64,000 bases of DNA, taken from assembly GCA_025716855.1 (NCBI GenBank), contig JAIXMQ010000001.1, forward strand, positions 957,501-1,021,500, given 5' to 3'. The notes beneath the pieces were generated by a model that worked only from the letters and a program-made list of their open reading frames with translations, did no database searches and was not told the DNA's origin. Position 1 is the stretch's first letter, and every line of letters begins with the position of its first letter. The translations under genes and the position numbers were made by a program. Origin of the DNA: Pilaira anomala (taxonomy: Eukaryota; Mucoromycota; Mucoromycetes; Mucorales; Mucoraceae). Shown piece after piece: positions 1,043 through 51,329 of the stretch.

Positions 1043-3592
1043 TTATCCACTACAGCTAACACAAGCTTCAGGATTCTCAAGAGAACAGGCAATGGCAGCT
1101 AAATCATCAGCAGTCTTTTCAATTTCTTCTTCAATATCTTCCTTAGCCTCTTCACCCATAGTTAATCTCATAGCTTCAACAGGACTAGTCTTGAGGAATT
1201 GCATACCAGTCTTTAAGCCTCTGTTCCAGCTATAAAAATGCATGGAGGAAAGACGGCTATAGTTAGGTTCGGCAGAGAAAAGGTTGAGTGATTGAGATTG
1301 ATCAATAAAGGCAGCACGGTCAGCAGACATATCAATAATAACACGTTGAGAAATATCCCAAACTGTCTTATAAAGTTTCTTGAGATCATCAGAAATTGAA
1401 GGAAGCTTTTGAACACTACCATTAGATTGAATCAACATCTCCTTAACCTTGGGGTTCCACATACCACGTTCGATCAAATTCTTAAGCAAATGAGGGTTTA
1501 CTGCTTGACATTCACCAGTGTGAGAGCGGTAGGTGAAGATCATGGTTTGGTAAGGTTCGAAACTATCATTGTTGCCAAGGAATTGACTGGTAGTAGTAGT
1601 GGGCATAGGAGCAAGAAGAACAGAGTTACGAACACCATGAGCCTTGATATTAGCACGAAGGGTATTCCAGTCAAGACGATCAGAGCCTTGAACATCCCAC
1701 ATATCGTGTTGTAAAATACCTTGGCTAATAGGAGAACCTTCATAAGAAGCATAAGGACCAGACTTTTGAGCTAATTCGTTTGATGCTTCAAGAGCAGCAA
1801 AATAAACAGATTCAAAAATGTCCTTATTCAATTCACGAGCTTCAGGAGAATCAAATGGATAATGCATCATTAAAAAGACATCGGCTAAACCTTGTACACC
1901 TAAACTAAGAGGTCTATGTTTCATAGCACTAGTTTGGGCTTCTTCAATAATATAGTTATTGACATCTATCATCTTATCCAAATTCTTAATAGCAACTTTG
2001 ACAACATCATGAAGAGCGGTAAAATTGAAAGTACGAGTTTTTTCATCTACACACTTGGGGAGAGCAACAGAAGCAATATTACATGAACCAACTTCGTTAA
2101 TATCAGAATATTGCATAACATCAGCGTGCATGTTGGAGCCGGAAATAACACCCAAATTCTTTTGATTGTTCTTCTTATTAACAGAATCCTTATAACACAT
2201 GTAAGGCATACCACTTTCCATTTGTGCATCCAAAATAGCGAACCAAAGCTTTTGAGCGGAAACGATCTTTCTAGACTTTCCAAGCTTTTCATATTTGAGA
2301 TAGAGTTTTTCGAAATCTTCACCGAATGAAGTATCAAGTCCAGGACATTCGTTAGGACACATTAAAGACCAATCACCGTTACCCTCAACACCTAATCGAG
2401 AAACAAAAATTAAACTCTGAAATAACTTTTTAATTTTAGAAATATTAACTTACGCTTCATGAAAATATCAGGGATCCAAAGACCAAGGTTGAGGTGACGA
2501 GCACGAAGATTTTCTTCACCAGAGTTCTTTGAAAGATCAATGAACTCAAAGATATCGGCATGCCAAGGTTCCAAATAAACAGCATAAGTACCCTTTACCT
2601 TTCTAGCACCAGGAGTGATAAAACGAGCAGCATCGTTGAATACACGAAGCATAGGAACAATACCGTTAGATGTACCATTTGTACCAGCAATGTAGGAACC
2701 TGAGGCACGAATCTTTTGGAAACTCATACCAACAGATCCACAGGCCTTGGATACACGAGCACAAGTAGCTACTGTATCGTAAATACCTTCAATACTATCT
2801 TCCTTCATTTGAATTTCAAAGAAACTGGAGAGTTGACCACAGTTGGTACCAGCATTTAAAAGAGTGGTTGAAGCGTAGGTAAAGAGTTTGCGAGAGGTAT
2901 AGTCATAAGCCTTGAAGGCACTTTCCAAGTCTTCTCCGTGAATGGCAAGAGCGACGCGCATCATCATGTGTTGAGGACGTTCGACGATCTTTTCCTTGAC
3001 CTTCAATAAAAAGTTTTGTTCCAAGGTTTTAAAGCCAAAGTAGTTAAAGTCGAAATCACGTTGGTAATCAATGGTCTTATTAATGACTTCTTTGTGCTTT
3101 AAAACATGGTTTAAAAACTTCTCAGAAATCAAAGGGTTGGGGGTTCCTGTCTTAGGATGGACATTGTCGTATAATTCTTGCATAACATCAGAGAAATTAT
3201 CGTGTGTTTGTTTTTGGAGATTAGAGATAGTAATACGAGCAGCTAAGATAGCATAGTCAGGATGAATATTGGTCATGTCAACAGCGATCTCGGCAGCCAA
3301 TTCGTCCAACTGAGAGGTAGTAATACCAGGATACATGCCAGAAACAACCTACACATTATTCAGCATTAATGTATGCTCTATTAAAAAAGCTTGATACATT
3401 GACTCCTTACCTTTTGAGAGATTTTGGGAGGGTCAACATAGTTTTCGTCAAGCCCTTCACATAAAATATTGATACGAGAACTAATCTTATCAAAGAAGAC
3501 CTTTTCTTGGGTTCCGTCTATAACAAGGTTAGATAAATCATGTTGCAATATAATTATAACTAAAATACGCTACCTCTCTTTACAACATACAT
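1043..3592 (-). CDS. ribonucleotide reductase large-subunit homologue lacking catalytic residues
   Basis: Exons (minus) 3592-3574, 3517-3411, 3348-2454 and 2391-1043 give 789 aa, the usual class Ia R1 length. The family reduces ribonucleoside diphosphates together with an R2 subunit. The N-terminal ATP-cone region starts MYVVKRDGTQEKVFFDKI. The R1 barrel is recognisable throughout (NAGTN, SYIAGTNG, MCPNECPGLD, RPLSLGVQGLADVF, PMPTTTTSQFLG, SMHFYSWNRGLKTGM) and the tail ends SLENPEACVSCSG. Key positions differ from human RRM1 at almost identical numbering. Phe218 replaces redox Cys218 (codon 2821-2823). His429 replaces thiyl Cys429 (codon 2126-2128). Asp431 replaces Glu431. Gln738-Phe739 replace the radical-transfer Tyr pair (1196-1201). 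Cys444 and the tail CxxC (784/787) remain. Specificity loop 2 is also diverged (GARKVKG). There are no stops or frameshifts, so I infer a maintained, probably non-catalytic R1 paralogue. Family assignment is certain; loss of activity is inference. Confidence 0.93.
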
Positions 3593-4544
3593 CTTTTATT
3601 GTTATTTTTATAAAGAAAAAGAAACTAAATGAATAAAAAAATTTCGCGACTTGATCACGTCCCTTTTTTTTTTTATCATAGCGCTATTAAAAAACGCGAC
3701 AAGCGAAATCGAAAGTCCTGTCAGAACGCGATTTGTTTTCAAACATAGTCTGCGTTTGAAAGATTAAGAATGGATTTTTAAGCATTTGCATGTTATGTGA
3801 TACAGTATTCAACAATAGGGTGATAGTTTTCTCTCAGTAACTTACTTAAAATCAGTTAGTTAAAAAACCAGTAACGAAATGGACTGCAATAAAATAAATT
3901 TATTTGACCAGGCCTTTGGATATTATATCTAAAAGGAAGAGAGTGCCCCTTCAATTGTGAAAAGTACTATATACTTGTGATAATTATCTGCTATTAATAT
4001 ATGTATGTAAATTTGTCAATAAATTGAGAATTGCTTATATAATTTAGTTTAAACTCGTTTTGTAAAACCTCCGAAATAAGACATATCGTCAAAAAGTGAA
4101 CGAATAAAGCTTTGACAGCTACCGAACTAAGCATGGTGCTTATGTTTATATGTAGGCAGGATCTTATAATTTCAATCAAAAGAAATTGTTTCTCCGTAAA
4201 AGAAATAGTCTTCGCATAAACTATTACTCAACGTATACTAGTAAAACGTTTTTAAATATTAACGATTCAAATCGTTTACTTTGTGCAATACCTTATGATA
4301 ATAGCTCCAAATGTCTGTCTCTGGTTAATGACATCAACTATGCATCAAATCTAGGGTTTCTAATCATTTTAACCTACCTAATTCTGTAATAAAGTGAAAA
4401 TTTCCCGGAAATCCGAGACTTTCGGTTTGAGTAGCCAATTCAAACCTGCTTAATAAAACCTTTGACACTTTATCATATTTTTTTTTATCTCTTTTTAACT
4501 TTTTTTATTTTTATTTTAACAAACAAACATTAGCAGAAAAAAAA
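3593..4544. other. divergent spacer between RNR homologue and SUR7-like gene
   Basis: About 950 bp serving as the 5' region of both divergent genes. It carries the CGCG cluster next to the RNR start and a pyrimidine-rich tract (about 4474-4515) before the ATG at 4545. Short open frames at 3994-4179 and 4186-4389 show no homology cues and are rejected. Confidence 0.5.
3640..3735 (-). promoter_or_regulatory. cluster of E2F/MBF-like CGCG sites upstream of the RNR homologue
   Basis: Three CGCG elements lie 50-140 bp upstream of the RNR ATG: TTTCGCG at 3642-3648, ACGCGA at 3694-3699 and ACGCGA at 3726-3731. They resemble E2F (TTTCGCG) and fungal MBF/MCB (ACGCG) sites, which drive G1/S transcription of RNR genes in yeasts and animals. 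CG-rich heptamers are rare in this AT-rich spacer, so the cluster stands out. Function is inferred. Confidence 0.45.
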
Positions 4545-6365: not shown

Positions 6366-8525
6366 ATGACTGCTCAGCAAAACAAGTTGGAACTTTTATT
6401 GAAGTGGTTCGACGAGAACAAGATAGAGTGGGATAAAGAAGCTTTGGAATTGAAAGAAACCAATGGATCTTTCGGTGTCTATGCCAAAAAGAACATGAAG
6501 AAAGACAAACCAAGTAAGCAAAAATAAAAAATTAAACCAGACTATCTACACACAAATAGTAGATCTAACCATGCCGATTTAGTTGTTAAGATCCCTAAAA
6601 ACTGTATTCTTTCTATTAAGACTACTGGTATTGCTAATATCTTGGATGAAGCTAACCTCGAAGGCGGTTGTCCCCTTGCTTTAGCTGTATTATATGAAAT
6701 TGCTCAAAAGGAACAGTCTCCTTGGTACGGTTATCTCCAAGCTCTTCCTGATCATGGTGAAGACCTTCCTATCTTTTGGGAAGAAGATGAAAAAGATTTA
6801 TTCAATGGTACCGAAATGGAATCTGCTGTTAGAAATGATTTGGTAATGTAGCGACTTTTTGAATGTTACTGGATTTATCTATTGGTTACTAACACATTTG
6901 ATAGAATGATCTTGAGGATGACTATGCTGAGTTAATTGAACCTCTTTTGGAAGATTATCCTTATATTTTTGACCGTGGAACTAATGAGGATAATGACCCT
7001 TACTCTTTCGATAAATTCATCAAAATTTCTACTTTGATTTCTTCTCGTGCTTTTGAAGTTGATGCATTCCATGAGAACGCTTTGGTTCCTTTTGCTGATA
7101 TTTTCAATCACAAGGGAGAAGGAGAACAAGTTCATTTTGAAACAGAATTTGAAGTTTGTGACGCTTGTGGTGCTCTTGAATATTGTGAACATCAGTATCT
7201 TGATTTCCTCGAAAACAGCGATGAAGAACACAGCGACGATGAACATAGTGATGAAGAACATAGTGATGCGGAAGGAGAGAACGAAGAAAACGCTGAAGGT
7301 GAATGGGAAGATGCCGAAGACCTCAGTGAAGGAGAAGACGAAGATGAATTGGACGAAGAAATGGCTTTGGATACTGAGTTACCTGATTTAGAGGAATTAG
7401 AGGCTGCTGGTGTCAACTTTTGGGATGCTGAAGAAGATGAAGATAAAAAGGACACCTGTGACATGGTCCTCGACCGTAATGTTAAGAAAGGTGAAGAAAT
7501 TTTCAACACTTATGGCGATCATCCTAATATTGCTTTATTAAGTAAGTACGGTTTCTGTTATGATGATAACAAAAACGATTATGTCTCTATTGGCGAAGAA
7601 TCTATTGTTGATTGCTGTCTTGCTATTACTTGTGAAATTTTGAAGAGTAAGATGCCCGAGGCTTCCAACGAAGAAGTTGAAAAGGCTGCTATTGAGCTCA
7701 CTAGACCTAGATGGGAATTCTTCTTGAAGAATGAAAAGACTTTATGTCCTTCCGCTGAAGGTGAAGAGGATCAAGAGGATGATTTCGACAACGGTTGTCA
7801 AGACGACTGCTGTGGCTCTGACGATGAGGGACATGGTCATGAAGGCCATGATCACGCTGGCCATGGCCACGGACACGAAGGTCATTCTCATGGTGAAGAC
7901 CACGATGATGAGGAGCATGATGATGAAGAGCACGAACATGATCCTGAGGGTGGATGTTGTGGTAGTGATGATGAAGAAGGAGGAAAGGGTCGCCCTTACT
8001 TTATTAATTCTGAGGGCCTTTTCGAAGACAAGCTCATGTGTTTACTTCATATCATGTTTGTTAGCGAGGAAACTTTCGCTAAGTTTGCCGAAGATATTGA
8101 AAATGCTTTATCTTATTTCGAAGATCTTTCTAACAGCCAAGGTGAAAACAAGACTAAGGCTATTGTTGATGTCAAGCGCATTATTTATCAAGTTTGTCGT
8201 GCACTCTGTGAGTTCAGACGTTTAGAATATCTTGAAGATGGCGAATGGAAGCCCATCGAGCAAGAAATTGAAGAGCGTAAAAAGGTAACTTTTGCTTATT
8301 AATAATATTACCAAAAATCAAACTAACTTTGTATTATAGATTACTGATAACATGAGAAAGTACTACGCTTTAACTTGTCGTATTGGCGAGAAGAAGATTA
8401 TCGAAAGAGCCATTAAATATTACGGAGATTTAGTAGAGGAATACTCTGCACCTGTTGCTGAAAAGAAGAAATCAGTTGCTAATAAGAAGAAGCCCGCTTC
8501 CAAGAACAAGAAACAAAAATTGTAG
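6366..8525 (+). CDS. SET-domain protein lysine methyltransferase (RKM/SETD6 type) with acidic and His-rich inserts
   Basis: Exons 6366-6513, 6583-6842, 6905-8284 and 8340-8525 give 657 aa. Intron 2 has a TACTAAC-like branch site. The split SET domain includes NGSFGVYAKKNMKK near residue 31, SRAFEVD at 183-189, FADIFNH at 199-205 (the NH SAM-binding motif) and NTYGDHPN from 337 (catalytic Tyr region). A Rubisco-substrate-binding-like helical half follows. This is the layout of ribosomal-protein and SETD6-type lysine methyltransferases. Two inserts are unusual. The first begins with a CDACG knuckle (221-225) and runs into about 90 Asp/Glu-rich residues. The second (about 438-490) is a Gly-His-Asp-Glu tract of roughly 18 His, bounded by CCGSDDE motifs at both ends. 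It resembles a metal-binding loop. The C-terminus is Lys-rich (KKKPASKNKKQ-like), perhaps nuclear or nucleolar. The substrate is unknown. Confidence 0.85.
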
Positions 8526-14565: not shown

Positions 14566-16368
14566 ATTGAAAGCACATTTTATTTCCTTTTGTATATTAC
14601 TATATTTATCATAATACTTCCCTATTCTTTCTCATCATGTATATATACCAAACAAATTATTTTCCTATTTTTTATAATAAATAATCTTGTTATCAAATAA
14701 ACTTTCATATTCACTACTCATATTTTAATAGAAGACTATCATTTAAATACAACCTGCATATTAAGATTAAGGTTTTTGAATCTAAACTATAAATCTTTTT
14801 TTTAAGCAGTTAAAAAGGCAAATCTCTATATGATGTTTATGACACATGAAAAGACTTTAACAATTTTATTAATTCTTAAATCAAAATTTGATAGAGATTG
14901 ATAAATGAAAAGACAATTATGAATTTGACGTTATATTGATGGTGAAATCGCATCAGCATCGAATAGCAAAAAGTATAAATGTTACAATAATGCTCTTAAG
15001 TTTGCATTATCCACAAAACAGCGCCTTAATCACATTCTATTTACATTACATGGCTACATTCAAGGAATATCTCATAGTATCAAGCTCCCAATTTTCCAGT
15101 TAATGGGTATAGACTGCCATAATAGCTTGTTAAACATTATTGACAAGGATGTTTATGCACTCCATGAAGTTTACAAGTTTAGCTTCCCAAGAACAAACTA
15201 AGAATACTGCTATTACAAAGTACAGACAGCCAACAGCGGTGCCATTAATGGAGTTACTACTGGTCTTCAAAGTATGGGGGTAACACTTGGTTGTTACATT
15301 GCTTCTAGGAGCAATTGTAATGGATCGAACTAAAAAATTCTGTTTTATTTTTTGCATAATTTAGGATATAGCCAAAGCTGTAAACGATATAGATATATGT
15401 TAATATCTCTTAAGACATTTCCAATTTCATTAGTATAATAAAAAAACAGCAAAAAGAAAAATAAAGACAAAGGAAAATCAAATGTATGTAGCTCACACAT
15501 TTCGCCTGGAGTGGATGAGGGATGATGATGAATAAATAGCATACTGATATATATCACAGTAGTCTGTGAATAAAGAAACATAAATACCCTCTCAAATAAT
15601 AGAATAGATACAATATCTCTCACATTTTTACTCTTCACTTTTTACATTTTAATAAACACTTGTAAATAGTCTCAAACAGATTTTAAAGCTTTTCTCTTTT
15701 CATTGTAAAATCATAGCTATCACAATATGAAAATTGTAGGTAGTTGATTATCAGCACTTTAATAGACTAAGTTATAATTTCGTTAACTATAGTTTCATCA
15801 AAGTAATTAAATCATGCAATAAAAGAATAAATTGTTCCAGATCATGATCTTCCTTAAACTAATAATTGTCAAACTAGAATATAATGTAGTACAAAGCATT
15901 GTTTCCTTATCGGATCTTTATGTAACCATTGTTGAGTTACTGACATTTTTATTGTCATAAAAATGTATTGAATGGTAAATTAAATTTTTACTTACATGAT
16001 CTATCAAGTGATAGGTATATTTCATATCGATACTTTATAATAATTGATCTATTTTGTATATCAGATTTAATGTTCACATCTATCCCCTTTAAGTCTTTCG
16101 TGTTCAAGTATAACATCTGTCATTGTCCAAATAAAGATAAGAAAAAAAACGCAATGACCTCATCATTGTTTTGTTGTTTTTCAAATAGAAGAAAAGCGTT
16201 TCATCATGTTTTCTTTTTTAAATCTTGTCTTCTTACGCAAGGAGAAAGAGTGACTGCACTTCAATTGATTCAAACTGTATTCTTTTATCTTTTAATATAA
16301 TTCAATTTCTTTATTCTATTTATACTCTTGGAATTGTCAATGTTCAACTTTGACATTACTATAATATA
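14566..16368. other. intergenic spacer (1.8 kb)
   Basis: AT-rich DNA between two plus-strand genes. Short frames at 15130-15638 and 15968-16300 have no motif and no splice-compatible extension and are taken as chance. No tRNA-type box pair or repeat was found. Confidence 0.45.
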
Positions 16369-19300
16369 ATGGATAATACACAACGCAGGTCCAGTCTTAC
16401 TAGTTTCAACTTTCAGACACCCGAAAATAACATAAATGAAGAAGGTGTTTTATCAAAAATATTCGATAAAGTCAAGAGTGCCGTGTCTGGACAGCCTCAA
16501 ACACACGATAATATTTCAGTTCGTACAACCAGTATTCATAATGACAGAAAACCTTCCGCTGTTTCTTCTTTGAGTGGCGATCATATTGTTGCTACCGATT
16601 CGAATCACATTGAACATCAACAATTGACTTTACCTAACTCAATAAGCACTAACTCAAGCTTGAGCAGACATTTGACTACAGCTTCGTCTTCTACTACTAT
16701 TGCAACCACAACTTCTAATTCACATAAAGATCAAGCTCTCGCTAACTTTCCAACCTCCATCAATCCTGAAACAGTCCCGCGTCCTTCTAATTCGACTACA
16801 GCAACCACAACCACTACGATTACTGTGGGAAATCAAAAAGATGACAATATTATTGAACCCAATAATAATTCTACTGTTCAATTTCTCATGCCTACGAACA
16901 GGGTATCACAAGACGATAGTCGCGCATCTCTCGATTACTTATTAGGCTCTCCATTAATTAAAAGAAGATCTATTGATAGTGATACACAATCAGTTGCAAC
17001 TAATTTCTCTATATCCAATTCTAATTCACTTTCAAAGATTTTGGCTCGTTTAAGAGGCCAGAAGAACGATAAAGAATTTTGGATGCCTGATGAGCAGTGC
17101 AAAGAATGTTACAAGTGTAGAAAAGCTTTTACTTTATTAAGAAGAAGACACCATTGTCGTACATGTGGTAAATAATAAGGTTCTTTCAAACAAATTGATA
17201 ATTAAACAATCAAATGATTTGCATTTTTTTAGGTCAAATTTTTTGCGGTCGGTGTGCTTCTCACGTTATATCTGGAAAGATCTATAAACAGAAAGGTCAA
17301 TTTCGAGTATGTAATTTCTGTTATGCTGAGCAATTGTTGCAATTAAAAGAGAATACACCTTCTTCAAATTCGGATGTTCATGATTATTCCACATCAAAGA
17401 ATCCATCATCCGCAGCAAATACAACGACAACTACTGGAAGTAATGCAGACACCGATACTCAACAACAGCAACAATTAGAAATACAGAAACAAAACCAACA
17501 TTCCGGTAGTACCTATAATTCAAACATTATACCATCCCAAAAACCACCTTTAGCTGCTCCTAAAATGCAAATACCTGCAACTGCATTGAGGCATACAAGA
17601 AGTACTTATGGAAATGATGATACCACTATGTTTGCATTAGAAATACCTACCCATGGATCTGATAATTACTTAAGTGGCTCGCCTCAAACTTCTTTCTTAC
17701 TTGAAAGGCCTCATTCTTCAAATACTTCCCATACCTTGGAACCATCTAATAACCCAACAAGCGATTCCCCAACGTTGCCAAACAGCAACATGGTAACATC
17801 TTCTGGTATAATTCCTACCATCACAACCACAGGTGTTTCAACTAATGAATTAACAACAGCTAGTGGAGGTTTGAAACGTTTACTAGATGCCGGAACCTCC
17901 TTATTAAAATCAACTACATCGTCACGCCCAAGATCGAATACGTCATCATCCGCTCCTATGGAAGACACAAGGTATCCCGTCATGACACAATACGGATCAC
18001 CCGGAACATTTAGAGGAAACAGTAATTATCCATTGTCACCATATTTGTTAAACCGTGGTGGTGGTACAGTATTAGCAGAGAGTGAATTAAGCCCATTTCC
18101 GGATAACAATAATGAAACGAATGAATTCTATCAAGATCATCTTCATCATCAATTTCATCATTATGATAGACCTCAACTCATACCACCCCCTCCACCACCA
18201 CCACCACCACCACAACCACCAATCTATGGCATGTTTCATACAAACTCTAATCAGATGCTACCAAAGTCTACTTATGGGGAACAATTACCTCCTAACTTTA
18301 ATTATGGCTCCAGTAATGCAATAGCTACTATAGGAAGTGATGATGAATCCTATGACCTTCGTCTTCGTATGAAACGGACAGAAGAACTTCGAGGTAAAGA
18401 ATTATACTTTTTTTTTTCATAATTCTCTAACAAAATCAGTAATTTTCTGCAGGTAACACAGGTACAATCAGTGCAGGTAATAATAAAAAGTTATTCAGGA
18501 ATAATTTGATTCGAATCAATACCTCAGGATTACCTAAATATGACTTTGGATCTCAACAAATGAGCGAAAATTGGTCACCCAATCCTTTTATTAATGACAG
18601 TACGCAACAAAATCAGCTTCAATCTTCTCAACAAGAATCTAGTACTTCTAGTTTAAATAGACTTCGAATACCACCCCGTCAAAGACGAATATCTGGTCCA
18701 CCTCAAATTGTAGAATTAAGTTTAAGTGCAAGAACACATGCTCGAAGAATTTTAAGACAATTAATGGAGGAAATTACGTTAGAAGATACAAATAAGCATG
18801 ATTGGGAAGAAGTTATTATGGGTATCCTATTAAAGGTGGCTCATAACGTACAACCTGATATTCGTGCTGGCGACGATATGGATGTTCGACATTATGTTAA
18901 AATCAAGAAAATTCCTGGTGGTTTACCATCCGATAGCTTCTATGTAAAAGGCGTCGTATGTACAAAAAATGTGGCTCATAAACGTATGATGCATAATATT
19001 TCAAACCCTCGTATCTTGATTTTGCTATTCTCTTTAGATTATTCTCGTATCGAGATGGAGAATCAATTATTCTCTATTGCACCTGTTATTACTCAAGAAC
19101 GAGAACACATTAAAAAATTAGTAGGCCGTATTGTTGCCCTGAAGCCCTCTTTGCTAGTAGTTAAATCCACTGTATCTCGTTTGGCGTTAGAGTTTCTGTT
19201 AGAGGCTAATATTCCCGTGATCCATAATGTTAAACATAGCGTGATTGAAGCTGTAGCAAGATGCACCCAAGCTAGTATTGTGACTTCAGTTGATAAATTA

Positions 19301-22300
19301 CATCATGGATTGTCGTTTGGTCGATGTGGGTCTTTTGAAATTCGGACAGTCATACATGAATGGATTCCAAATCGTAGAAAGACTTTTTTGGTATTTGATG
19401 ATTGTGCTCCTGAATTAGGTGGTACCATTGTATTGCGGGGCGAAAAGAATGAAACTTTACGTGTAATAAAACGTTTGATCGATTTCATGGTATTTGTTGT
19501 GAATAATCTGAAACTAGAAACTTCCTTCTTATTAGATTCATTCGCCAAAAGTCGTGGAAGTACGGAAATTCATGTTGGTCCAACGCTACCAACATCTTAT
19601 TTATCTGAAAGAAATAGATCTCCGTTAGTGTCTGCTGGAGCACCTGTATCAACATCGATAAGATTAATAAACCAGTCTACGGAAAGTGTCTGCACGACAT
19701 CTGTTGTCGAATATCAAGAAGAAGACGCTCACACAATAAATAGTCAATACACAGCAAGTCTATTACAGCTTTACCAAAACACCATACTTTCTGTATCTCA
19801 ATTTGTCGTTTTCCCTCCCCCATATCTTTTAGTGGCTTTAAAAGAGACCGAAGATAAGTTGGCTTTAATTAATGATCAAAAACGCCGTAAATCAGCTTCT
19901 GGATCTTCCATATTAACTACAGCAACAACAAGGGATTTTACTGCTCCCTTATCTGCTTCACCAACTCGCTCAACATTTGAGAAACAATCGATACATAGTA
20001 CTGATCATAGTACGCTTGTAGCGAAAACAGATTCTTTAGATCAACATTACCATCACCTACACTGGCACGAAGAAGATGTAGAAATTGAAGCAGAAAATGA
20101 CTTGATCACAAAATACCGACAAATTTCAAGAGCTTGGGAGGCTTACATTGGTGAAAATCCTGAATTTATTAGTCCTTTCTATCACCAAAATATAGTCGTC
20201 TTGTTTTCAAGTGTATGTACTGTTACTACTGTTCCTTGTCAAGGACCAGAAATTCGAATCTTTAGTTTTTATCGATTTCCATCAGATAAAACTTTGGGTC
20301 AATACATTACTGATTTCTGTAATGATGCACATCAGCCATGTTCGTCATTAATGTGTGATAATACAATGTTGCAACATTATAGATCATATGCTCATGGGAA
20401 TGCACGTGTCAATGTCATGATAGAGCCTTTTGCCTGCCCTTTACCCGGTATGCAAGACAAGCTTTTAATGTGGAACTATTGTAAAGAATGTGATAAACCA
20501 ACACCTGTTTTACCTGTATCTGAAAACACCTGGAATTATTCATTTGGTAAATTCCTTGAAATATTTTTTTATCAAAAAGGAGTCTATTGCAGAGCAGATA
20601 TTTGCCCACATGAGATGAACCGAAATCATGTCAGATATTTTGGTTATATGAATTTGGCAGTAAGATTCCAATATGATTCGATTGATTTGCTTGAAGTGAC
20701 AGTACCGCCTATGAAGCTATTTATTCTTAGTAAAGTACAGATGGATATCAAAGATGCTGAACTAGCACTACTCCGGTCTAAAATTAACAAGTTTTATCAG
20801 TCTATTATTGAACGTAACAAAGCATTCCCTTTTGATTTGGTAGATCCGCATAAATTAGATAATTGTAAGGCCGAACTTCAAGAGATGTCGACAGTAGCTC
20901 AAGGAGAAAAGAAAGATGCCTTACAACTTGTTCAAAATGTTTACGCTCATTCTGACCCTTATGATACTTTATCAATCAATGGTGTTAGAAGAAATCTGTT
21001 CCAAGTGGTTAACCATTGGGATGCTGTATACGCTGATTTCGTTCGATATTACTTACAACCTGAACGCGAATTGAAGAAAATTACAACAAACCAGTTACGA
21101 AAAATGTTTCCTGCTGAACTTTCGGAATATGCCATCTCTAATATGAATAACGAACGTACAAAACGTGCCACTGAATTAACAGATTTGCCTCTTCTAGATA
21201 TTGGTCTTGATGGTGAAACGGATGATACACTGATAGGTCATAACTACAAGCGGAAATATTCTGCAAAAGGTGACGAAAACAACACAAAGAAGAATACTCA
21301 AATGATATATCCGACGTTATTATCATCTCCTTCCGAGAAAAATAGTCTTACAGGTACTATTACGGATGATCAGTCTTCAAAAGAAGATAATTCTACACTG
21401 GTTGATTCAGATCATAAAGGTTCTTTCTTGAGACCTGAAATTAGAAGAAGATTATCACTGGAATTATTACATGAATTGAATGCAAAGCTTAAAGTAGATG
21501 AAGGAAGAGCTACAGGAATTGAAGCATTGAATCAAATTACGTCCAACAAGTTTTTAAGACTTAAAAGTCCTGGCTCTATATCTGCTTCTTTTACTCCTTC
21601 ACGCATTCCAATTCCACTCTATAGTAACAATGGAAAGGGAAGTATTCCTTCAACTCCACCTTTGTACCAGTTATTCAATCGAAGACAAAGAAACAATATG
21701 AATTCATTTGTTGTATCAACACGACCATCTTCAACTATGGATACAAATTATTCAAGCTCACGTCACACTGAAAAGAAGGAAAAAAGGACTAAGAAAGACC
21801 AGACGAGTAGTATTACTCTTCCTGTAAAGACTACAGATAATAAGATGCCTAGATCAGCTACTTCTATTAACGTGCAACAGCGAGGCCGCCATCTTCGACA
21901 TCACTCTATTGGTCATAGTCAACACTTAAACCATAAAAGCTTATTTGAACAGTTGAGAAGCAGAAACAATGAAGATACTGAAGATGATATCAATGAAGAA
22001 GACGGTCTTAATAATTTTCTTCAAAAAAATACCACAACTCGTAAATTTAGATCTCGATTACCAAGAAAAAAGACGTACATTCAAGTCTACAGTCGAGCAA
22101 ATGATCTTGTCGAAGAAGATATTGATGACGAGTTTTATGCAAGTGGTGATTTACCTGAAGACTCAGTCTCTATTGATTCAACAGTTAAGCAAAGAAAAAG
22201 TTATTATCAAGATAGAAGTAATAGTGGTAAAAAACGAAATACGATTGACCACTCATACATCAAAAGACGAGGTACGCTTCCGGGTAAATTACCTTTGAGA

Positions 22301-23473
22301 CATCTTAGTAGTAATGGCGATGAAGCTGATAACGATGATAATGATCTTTCAGACGACTCTGCAGACGCTTCTGATAGGGATCAAATTGATTACTTCTCTT
22401 CATTGGCGCCTTATACTCATAAAGTAATCGAAGGTGCAGCCGCTGTCCTGGCAGCAAGTAACGACAAAGCATCTGTTGAAAACCAAATCATACCGACCAA
22501 TATTGTCAACAGTGAACAGCAGCAATACCAATTCGCTAGAACCTACTTTCCTTTTAGTGATGGTCAATTAGATATGTCCTCTGGCATGTCTGGAGAAGAA
22601 GAAAATGATCGTGATTTACCTGCTGCTTCGGATCTTTTAATGGATCAACAAGCGAATGTTGATAATATGAGTCTTGGTGATTTACATAATATTCATCCTG
22701 GCATTATAGCAGATAGTTTACACGAAAATAGTCCATATTATAGTCGTGCTACTATCGTTGAAGCTTTAGAAGATTCTCGTCATTCTCCAGAAAAAATATC
22801 TTTTATGAAGACTTTGACAAACTTTTTGACAGACAGTGGTTTAGGTAACTTACTACCTTTGGAATCACCTTTGTACGTAACTATATTGCTTATTTTTTTT
22901 TTTAGTTTTGATTTACTAACTTTTTTTGAGCTATAGACAACCTACTGAGTACCTATTCCCGGATTCTTATGTTGTTGTACGAGAGGATGAACCAAGCACG
23001 ATTATTGCTTACACGCTTAGTTCAGAAGATTACATTGAAAAAATGCACGATATTCAAGAATGTAGTAGTGATAATCAATCAAATGATGGAACTATAAAGC
23101 CTGGTAATGTATCTTTAGCCGATTCAAAGGCACCATCCGAATTGACTGTAGACAACGGTAATCATCCAGCTCCATCTGTTGATGATATCCAAGAAACGCT
23201 TCTAAGAGAGTCTGGTACTCATATGAGATATAGTATGTATCAAGCTTACTGAACAACAATACTTAAAAAAAAAAACTATTCTAACCTTATATCCTGATAT
23301 TAGACTTTTCCACTGGTTCTACAAAGTTTTTCTGTAAGATATTTTTCTCTGAACAATTTGATGCACTTCGTAGAAACTGCGGTTGTGATGAAAGTTACAT
23401 TATGTCATTGGCGAGTTGTATTAAATGGGATTCATCTGGTGGAAAATCCGGATCTGCTTTCCTTAAAACGAAA

Positions 23474-48931: not shown

Positions 48932-50258
48932 AAAGTTCAATTTCCACTACAACAACTGGTTATTTTTGTCAATCTACTTTTACTACACACACACACATCT
49001 GCCAATAAAAAAAAAAAAAGTTATTTACTATGTATTATATAAATATCATTTACTCGTAAAAAGCAGTATACATAACTACCTATAAATATACACACTCTAA
49101 AACAGGTTTTTATCTTGATTATAGTTATTGACTCAAAATAATTTTTTAAGAAGGAATGGAATATGTTCGCATTTTTTAATCAGATATATTTTTCGATAAA
49201 AATGGTCAATACACAAAGTACACGTTTTTATTTATATGTTTTTATTGCTGATAAAAGCTCCAACTATGTGTTTGTGAATGTCAAAAAGATGCAGAGTCAT
49301 TTGAACAAATAACGATTCTGAAGTTAACAATAGTTAACGTGATAATAGTTACTAATTTTTTGGAGGCGTTTTTATATAAATATATATAGCATAGGTGATG
49401 AATTGGTAGTTATTGATATACAAAATGCATAGAATATGAAGTAGTTTCCTAAAAAATGATTATTATCCCTTGATTTATAAACCTGTAGCACGAATCCGGG
49501 AAACAGATTAATCTTTTTGATGCAAATAAAGTATATATCTCAATTATTTCTTTTTTTGTAACTAATAAGCATAATAATGTAATAGAATAAGAATTGCAAA
49601 TAAAAGATGAAGCGATATGATGAGAAAAAAAAAAGTAGTATGATCTTTTAAAAAGAATGATAGTAAAAGAGGGAATGGCACACAGGTTTTGTGTGATATG
49701 AGAGAGAGAGAAAGATAAACTTCTTTTGAAACACACTCTCTGATTTGCTTTTTGCATAATTTATATATAGAGTAAATAAATATTTATTTCCTGAAACTGT
49801 TCTGTCGAATGATTATAAAATCAGTGATAAGAAATTCGATAAGATTACTCTTTTTTTTTTTTTTTTTACGGGTTACACATATCATCCAGAGATTAATAGT
49901 GGTTCTAGATGAAGAGATATGCATATATATATATATAAAAAAAAGACCAATGATGTGAGCGCAACAGTTTTTTATAGGTTATAAAAGCCATATAAGTTAA
50001 TGATGAGATGATAAAAGATGAATGCATGAAAGAACAAAAATAAGAAAGGGGGAAGTCGTATTATAAGATTAAATAAAATCCAAAACATGAGATAGGGCAA
50101 AATGATAAGTGAAATCTTTTACCAATTTTGGCTATTTACTTTAACTTTTATATATCAATATATGTACACATGACTTTTTTATTTGACTTATATAAAAATG
50201 TAAAGGAATAAAACCATAATTTTCCATCTCTTTTGTTTCCTCTTACATATACTTAAAA
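48932..50258. other. intergenic spacer (1.3 kb)
   Basis: AT-rich DNA between presenilin and glutamine synthetase, both plus. It contains short TA and A/T runs and a GA-rich patch (49698-49714). Stretches near 50100-50245 form the glutamine synthetase leader. No GATA-site array or gene was identified with confidence. Confidence 0.45.
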
Positions 50259-51329
50259 ATGGCTGTTGTTTCTAACCCTACAATTCTTCAAAAATATCTT
50301 TCTCTTGCTCAACATGATAAGGTTCAAGTAGAGTATATTTGGATTGATGCTAAGAATGGTTTAAGATCTAAGACACGTACACTCGATTTTGTACCCAAGA
50401 CACCTAGTGAATTGCCTGAATGGAATTACGATGGTTCATCTACAGGTCAAGCAGAAGGTCATGATTCAGATGTACTTATTCAACCGGTTGCAATCTTTGC
50501 CGATCCATTCCGTGGTGGAAACAATAAACTTGTACTTTGCGAGACTTTTAATAATGATGGTACACCCCATGCAACCAATTACCGACACGCTTGTAAAAAA
50601 ATGATGGATTTGCATGCAGAATCCAAGCCTTGGTTTGGTATTGAACAAGAATACATGTTGTTTGATCCAGAGACATCCAAGCCTTATGGTTGGCCAATGC
50701 ATGGGTTTCCTGAAGCCCAGGGTAAGTACTATTGTGGTGTTGGTGCTGGTAAGATCTTTGGACGTGATATTGTTGAAGCCCATTACCGTGCCTGTTTATA
50801 TGCTGGAGTGAACATCTCTGGCGTCAATGCAGAAGTAGCACCTGGTCAATTTGAGTTCCAAGTAGGACCTTGTGTTGGAATTGATATGGGAGATCATCTT
50901 TGGGTTGCTCGATATATTCTTGAACGTGTGTCAGAAGACTTTGGAATTATTGTGTCGATTCATCCTAAGCCTATTAAGGGAGATTGGAATGGAGCAGGGT
51001 GTCATACGAATTTTTCTACAGAGGAGATGCGTCAAGAAGGTGGTATTGCTGCTATTGAAAAGTCTATCAAGAAATTAAGTGTACGCCATGCAGAACATAT
51101 TGCAGTTTATGGAGAAGATAATGATCAACGTTTGACGGGCCGACATGAGACTGGACATATTAATGATTTTAGTTCAGGTGTTGCTAATCGTGGTGCATCG
51201 ATTCGTATTCCTCGTCATGTCGGTATTGAAGGAAAAGGATATTATGAAGATCGTCGTCCTGCTTCTAATATTGATCCTTATCGAGTTACGGAAATTATTA
51301 TTGAATCTACTTTTATGCCTGATGCTTAA
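50259..51329 (+). CDS. GLN1: glutamine synthetase, type II
   Basis: Single exon, 356 aa, the usual eukaryotic GSII length. It joins ammonia to glutamate with ATP in the cytosol. Conserved motifs are complete: [17 protein letters not shown] (Glu/Ser substrate region), [12 protein letters not shown] (metal-binding Glu pair), [38 protein letters not shown] (ATP-binding), RLTGRHETG and [15 protein letters not shown], then [17 protein letters not shown]. The C-terminus ends MPDA, shorter than in yeast. It is the only long intronless, strongly codon-regular gene in the right half, which fits high expression. Confidence 0.97.

Follow-up and report, generated by a model that had tools for sequence, protein, structure and literature searches.

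Ribonucleotide reductase (RNR) governs the supply and balance of DNA precursors, and much of what its large subunit (R1) needs for activity has been described. The PMC-numbered sources used here are cited from excerpts of their texts, and statements resting on them extend that far. Cys429 is the thiyl radical carrier and Tyr737/738 are essential to radical transfer, and the Arg298Ala variant (the E. coli number for Arg293) retains negligible activity (PMC5819950, PMC4728125). In yeast, Arg293Ala is lethal when it is the sole R1 (PMC4728125). At the dimer interface both loop 2 and loop 1 touch the bound effector, and the neighbouring subunit contributes to this contact (PMC5819950). The active site of R1 is re-reduced by the tail of an adjacent R1 subunit (PMC3618301). 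In a class II RNR, a mixture of active-site-dead and tail-dead proteins is active, and intersubunit electron transfer is efficient only in tetramers or larger assemblies (PMC5704485).

Some described subunits depart from this pattern. Yeast Rnr4 is a cellular RNR subunit, a dead R2, that lacks the catalytic ligands and has an active paralogue as its partner, a partnership that was shown experimentally (PMC3267527). The betaherpesvirus proteins UL45 and M45 are R1 homologues without most catalytic residues, kept for other roles, and act on RIP1 signalling (PMC5469499). UN-24, the single R1 of Neurospora, has a role beyond catalysis, with a variable C-terminus for nonself recognition (PMC3618301). 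Full-text searches of an open-licence library turned up no fungal R1 of the dead type.

An R1 gene lacking key catalytic residues

The window, a 64-kb stretch of Pilaira anomala DNA on a 1.3-Mb contig of this fungal genome, carries a four-exon R1 gene on its minus strand (the window R1). Retranslation and alignment with human R1 bore out the coordinates and splicing given in the initial annotation, its substituted residues (F218, H429, D431 and Gln-Phe), and its claim that the gene is intact and free of stops: the frame runs for 789 codons plus TAA, and all three introns (56, 62 and 62 nt) are GT-AG. The features are listed by window position.

3574..3592, minus strand: exon 1 (splicing model), a 19-nt micro-exon encoding MYVVKR
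3411..3517, minus strand: exon 2 (splicing model)
2454..3348, minus strand: exon 3 (splicing model)
1043..2391, minus strand: exon 4, including the stop codon (splicing model)
3202..3592 including introns, minus strand: ATP cone with the overall-activity site, residues 1-91; Asp57, Phe15 and Asp16 kept
2821..2823, minus strand: Phe218 in place of redox Cys218 (alignment)
2620..2808, minus strand: residues 223-285, spanning the helix at the dimer interface, the ligands of the specificity site, and loop 1 (row comparison)
2590..2619, minus strand: residues 286-295, forming loop 2, whose altered form is new and fixed (alignment)
2120..2134, minus strand: N-M-H-A-D, residues 427-431, with thiyl Cys429 replaced by His and Glu431 by Asp (alignment)
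2081..2083, minus strand: Cys444, the second redox Cys, present (alignment)
1196..1201, minus strand: Gln738-Phe739 in place of the human radical-transfer pair Tyr737-Tyr738 (alignment)
1052..1063, minus strand: C-terminal CxxC (Cys-Val-Ser-Cys), found in 16 of 16 clade rows
3645..3730, no strand assigned: upstream cluster of three CGCG boxes (MCB/ACGCGA-like), at most 140 nt from the start codon

The alignment with human R1 is gapless to residue 444, and the Tyr pair is offset by one residue. At the positions concerned the window R1 has S217, F218, H429, D431, C444, Q738 and F739, and Asn427 is kept. The change claimed for loop 2 is also real: the loop reads RFITPGARKVKG in the window R1 and RYVDQGGNKRPG in human R1, with Gln288 replaced by Pro and Arg293 by Val. 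Because there are several independent lesions, nucleotide reduction by the window R1 is very unlikely, and a protein of this sequence would be expected to carry out none. The ATP cone, all-alpha and barrel domains all score above their Pfam cut-offs. In residues 223-285, whose roles are taken from PMC5819950, the window R1 keeps Asp226, Lys243, Arg256, Ala263 and Gly264.

A second, canonical R1 was sought in the same genome (G000; 34.25 Mb, 225 contigs), and three were found, on contigs C215, C154 and C153, all with C218, Q288, R293, C429, E431, C444, Y737 and Y738. The window R1 is therefore not the sole R1 gene, and the three paralogues are probably catalytically active. Its identity is 61% to the C153 protein and 54% to each of the other two, and its first-intron position is similar in all three genes. 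We found one R2 gene, whose spliced product ends in FTLDADF. Since the C154 and C215 proteins group in the tree as a second R1 lineage, three catalytic R1s of two lineages stand alongside the one R2 gene found. The C154 protein (L002), a catalytic R1 by its residues, has TGQYYLR in place of TGMYYLR, a change just before the Tyr pair. Mucorales are said to have a B12-independent class II nrdJ in an excerpted source (PMC7928374), a statement that does not agree with the class I genes found in this genome.

Three other loci in the window were noted. Consecutive plus-strand frames at 16354-22936 match FYVE and Cpn60_TCP1 and resemble an intron-interrupted gene for a Fab1-type phosphoinositide kinase. 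A single-frame, glutamine synthetase-like gene lies at 50220-51329 (plus strand; modest Pfam scores of 58.7 and 36.4 bits), and a plus-strand frame at 6905-8302 has long acidic and His-rich stretches and no Pfam match.

One clade across Mucor-group fungi

A protein search and a second search with a 15-row profile yielded 16 clusters resembling the window R1 (P0001-P0016; 149 member sequences) among the best 120 of 8,000 scored matches listed per search, so that dead R1s may also exist elsewhere. The lowest score in the clade was 1,301 bits, from a damaged model, and the next lowest 1,471; the best catalytic R1 among the matches listed reached 1,259. Named species are Mucor mucedo, M. lusitanicus, Mycotypha africana, Cokeromyces recurvatus, Benjaminiella poitrasii, Rhizopus microsporus, R. 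arrhizus, R. stolonifer, Choanephora cucurbitarum and Gilbertella persicaria. The closest named relative of the window R1 among the matches listed is that of Mucor mucedo (89% over 743 residues), and P0004 and P0005 are near copies of one another. For residue counts, 16 clade rows (the window R1 and 15 clusters) were set against 106 catalytic rows (the 117 or so listed, minus rows set aside, plus the three paralogues of the same genome). The damaged M. lusitanicus gene model P0015 and P0036 (968 aa, named Cocos nucifera) were dropped beforehand.

C218, Q288, R293, E431 and Y737 occur in none of the 16 clade rows and in 106 of 106 catalytic rows. C444 and Y738 are likewise present in every catalytic row, and C429 in 105, with one gap; in the clade, C429 is missing from 15 rows, C444 from 12 and Tyr738 from 11. 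The further matches P0121-P0146 have the canonical residue set in 26 of 26 cases. The loss of residues across the clade is far beyond chance. All 15 other rows examined are broken at the catalytic centre, and with the loss shared in this way we reject sequencing error as a reading. As for the parts originally described as retained, the ATP cone (by Pfam) and the C-terminal CxxC stand, as does Cys444 in the window R1 itself; Cys444 is not a feature of the clade, being present in 4 of 16 rows. A class I R1 lacking its catalytic residues thus forms one conserved clade, wider than earlier observed.

Across the clade, position 429 is taken by H, N, Y, S or C, position 431 by D, N or A, and position 444 by A, C, T or V. 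In loop 2, P288 is fixed in all 16 rows, and 15 rows have Val at position 293 where the remaining one has Ile; this loop is not free to vary in the dead clade. The Rhizopus stolonifer protein (P0016) has Cys429, yet also F218, T427, N431, V444 and H737, and its Cys429 may reflect drift or reversal.

Altered but real catalysis, whether through a different chemistry or by restoring a radical route within the same pocket, is very improbable. It could draw on the Cys429 of R. stolonifer, on the retention of Ser217, Thr604 and Thr607 (16, 16 and 15 of the 16 rows) and on the R1 fold, which is kept in a predicted model of P0001 (86% identical to the window R1; mean pLDDT 78.6, pTM 0.83). Against it, no substitute catalytic motif appears at the variable positions 429, 431 and 444, and each of the 16 rows has either Gln or His where Tyr737 would be. 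Confidence in the P0001 model is low in loops 1 and 2 (257-271, 280-294) and in the tail, so the model is uninformative on loop 2 geometry.

Models in half of the clusters (P0002-P0006, P0009, P0010 and P0014) start at Met47 (MYPGITT...); the most likely cause is that gene prediction overlooked exon 1, with its 19 nt, and exon 2. The ATP cone is therefore missing from databases for these eight; M. lusitanicus P0015 and others show it.

In a 56-row tree made by a quick method, the 16 dead rows form one group (SH-aLRT 100) nested within Mucoromycota-type R1s (SH-aLRT 100 and 99). The stem of the clade is 0.65 changes per column long and is followed by shorter branches. It joins the Mucor-Rhizopus catalytic clade with a support of only 13, and an alternative tree that places all Mucorales catalytic R1s together without the dead clade is not rejected (p-AU 0.54). 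Catalytic relatives have an altered loop 2, TQGGGKRNG or similar forms, from which the TPGARKVKG of the dead clade would most simply derive. A horizontal or viral origin has no support from this tree, which contains no viral rows and places the dead rows inside the Mucoromycota R1s.

Regional constraint and possible roles

Divergence was compared in seven matched dead/catalytic pairs, five of them drawn from the same species or genome. In the other two, the partners are close species: M. lusitanicus was matched to M. circinelloides, and R. microsporus to R. azygosporus. The dead/catalytic ratio is 1.53 for the whole protein, 9.4 for the Cys429/444 segment (425-447) and 13.5 for the Cys218 segment (201-222). 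The phosphate-binding loop diverged by 0.25 in dead and 0 in catalytic R1s, and loop 2 by 0.105 and 0. Ratios are 2.3 for residues 610-700 and 3.0 for 701-736, which adjoins the Tyr pair. The ATP cone has a ratio of 1.19 (from matched cells, the value used; 0.82 in unequal cells), the segment of dimer helix, specificity site and loop 1 (223-285) 0.73, and the last ten residues (783-792), including the CxxC, 0.56.

The region borders were chosen by us, partly from papers and partly after the first rate table. In a control with contiguous stretches of equal length, only 425-447 is extreme, with 0.7% of stretches as high. The corresponding figures are 6% for 201-222, 13% for 601-609, 18% for both 610-700 and 737-745, 25% for 746-782, 37% for loop 2 and 39% for 701-736. 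Stretches as low amount to 10% for 223-285, 18% for the CxxC end and 20% for the cone, and none of these three is singled out.

We also scored the 320 sites that are at least 98% invariant in catalytic R1s for retention in the dead rows reaching them. Retention is 60 of 76 sites in the cone and specificity region, 15 of 47 in the catalytic regions and 122 of 197 elsewhere. The difference between the first two (Fisher p 3.9e-7) is a guide, as sites are non-independent, borders were chosen and 6 to 8 dead rows cover the first 46 cone residues. D57, D226, K243, R256, A263, G264, C787 and C790 (human numbers) are present in 16 of 16 clade rows, and the hexamer-interface residues F15 and D16 in all six that extend there. 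The tail before the CxxC (746-782) diverged by 0.38, and the CxxC beyond it stays invariant. With the specificity- and activity-site ligands in place, nucleotide binding by the dead R1 is predicted.

This pattern bears on whether the gene was repurposed outside dNTP synthesis, in the manner of UL45/M45 or of UN-24 in nonself recognition, a role for which there are excerpted viral (PMC5469499) and fungal (PMC3618301) precedents. Such a protein would have little reason to hold nucleotide-site ligands and a redox tail invariant while its pocket drifts, and Pfam found no added domain in the 789 residues. We regard repurposing as improbable.

The same data make it scarcely credible that the window R1 is a decaying pseudogene, or an artefact of gene modelling or assembly. 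The long stem and the overall excess of divergence could be read that way, yet the frame and splice sites are intact, the loss is common to orthologues in ten named species and the degree of divergence depends on the region. Simulated neutral drift to 11%, 15.7% and 28% protein difference introduced on average 4.2, 6.0 and 10.1 stops, leaving 4, 0 and 0 of 300 runs stop-free. Orthologue models are intact except for P0015, in databases that favour intact frames. Simulations and region-specific conservation together make neutral decay unlikely, and Mucor-group fungi have very likely long maintained this R1 in a catalytically dead form.

There are hints of expression. P0001, from a contig set whose longest member has 2,698 bases, is one uninterrupted 789-aa frame that spans an intron position present in all four R1 genes of the Pilaira genome. 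This continuity suggests a cDNA origin, an indirect hint of transcription. The three CGCG boxes upstream of the window R1 compare with a window average of 0.29 per 600 nt (Poisson 0.003); 2.4% of 600-nt intervals in the 64-kb window hold at least three, and these lie at the promoter in question and at two further sites. In the 600 nt upstream, the R2 gene has four boxes (Poisson 0.0002), the C154 R1 five (1e-5) and the C153 R1 two (0.03); the C215 R1 has none in the 650 nt examined. ACGCGA is not enriched across the whole window (5 matches, 7.04 expected). MCB-like boxes in yeast bind a cell-cycle factor.

At a probability of roughly 0.6, we favour the reading that the dead R1 is a selectively maintained regulatory partner in mixed R1 oligomers, acting in trans. 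It would have originated by duplication within Mucoromycota-type R1s, in the lineage of the C153 gene, and been kept in Mucor and allied genera. Its sequence shows that the residues on which radical transfer, the thiyl and disulfide chemistry and the latching of substrate depend are gone, and that the cone, the ligands of the specificity site, the dimer helix and the CxxC of the tail remain. The resulting subunit, termed alpha-prime, would assemble with catalytic R1 into mixed dimers or hexamers; there its loop 1 and cone would bind nucleotides and its flexible tail CxxC would re-reduce the active site of the neighbour. It could thereby tune how much work the catalytic half does and which nucleotide signals govern the output.

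The nucleotide-sensing, oligomer-modulating role proposed in the initial annotation would fit the conserved parts. The CxxC is invariant although Cys218, a target of re-reduction, is gone from every row and Cys444, the other, from most; as this motif normally re-reduces an adjacent subunit, its retention points to service in trans. In keeping loop 1, the cone and the CxxC, the dead subunit appears to keep just those parts able to serve a neighbour. A further point for the partner reading is that the promoter carries boxes like the ones upstream of R2 and of two catalytic R1s. Points against it are the altered loop 2, which makes it unlikely that the subunit's own specificity site signals to its own pocket, the raised change in 701-736 and 610-700 (3 and 2.3 times that of catalytic R1), the C215 R1 promoter without boxes, the contiguous-stretch control that singles out none of the specificity segment, the CxxC end and the cone, and the class II precedent, in which efficient electron transfer between subunits took tetramers or larger assemblies.

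Most of this conservation would be just as compatible with an inhibitor. This next most likely role, itself unlikely, is that of a built-in brake that joins catalytic R1 in rings stabilised by dATP, or that binds R2 yet transfers no radical, and so reduces RNR activity at times of abundant nucleotides or halted growth. In its favour are the cone, whose Asp57, Phe15 and Asp16 are retained in the rows that cover them and belong to the dATP ring elements (PMC5819950), and the loss of Arg293, given the yeast lethality (PMC4728125). A pure poison needs no tail CxxC, yet every clade row has the motif. It would also be odd for a brake to have promoter boxes of the kind found at R2 and two catalytic R1 genes.

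Within the partner reading, a more specific form can be put forward tentatively, at somewhat less than even odds: a heteromeric R1 of the Mucor group in which alpha-prime pairs with a catalytic alpha and gives half a specificity site (loop 1), a dNTP-sensing cone and a CxxC reductant in trans. If true, regulation would be separated from chemistry within the RNR large subunit.

Comparison with known systems

A conserved cellular R1 that lost its chemistry and kept its allosteric ligands would be a natural separation-of-function subunit, making R1 allostery and tail reduction in trans directly testable within class I RNR. It may add a layer of dNTP-pool control in a fungal group that includes laboratory models. 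A 'ribonucleotide reductase' annotation in Mucor-group fungi does not always denote a reductase.

The window R1 shares with class Ia R1s (human RRM1, yeast Rnr1 and the C153 protein of the same genome) the R1 fold, made up of ATP cone, all-alpha domain and barrel; unlike them, it lacks Cys218, Cys429, Glu431, Gln288, Arg293 and Tyr737/738 and has loop 2 in its new fixed form. Yeast Rnr3 is also an R1 paralogue and is called a minor catalytic subunit, whereas the dead clade is without catalytic residues. By the title of Domkin 2002, as listed among the references of PMC6545439, Rnr3 activity is very low and is stimulated in a cross-talking Rnr1/Rnr3 complex.

UL45 and M45, compared here by description, share the loss of catalytic residues; they are viral, whereas the dead clade lies among fungal R1s and keeps its allosteric ligands and redox tail. 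UN-24 is likewise a fungal R1 with a role beyond catalysis, but, by the excerpted account, not a dead paralogue (PMC3618301). Rnr4 offers a parallel: here too, catalytic residues were lost in a paralogue of same-genome subunits with intact residues. The differences are that Rnr4 is an R2 whose partnership was demonstrated and alpha-prime a large subunit whose partnership we infer; alpha-prime would be the R1 counterpart of Rnr4.
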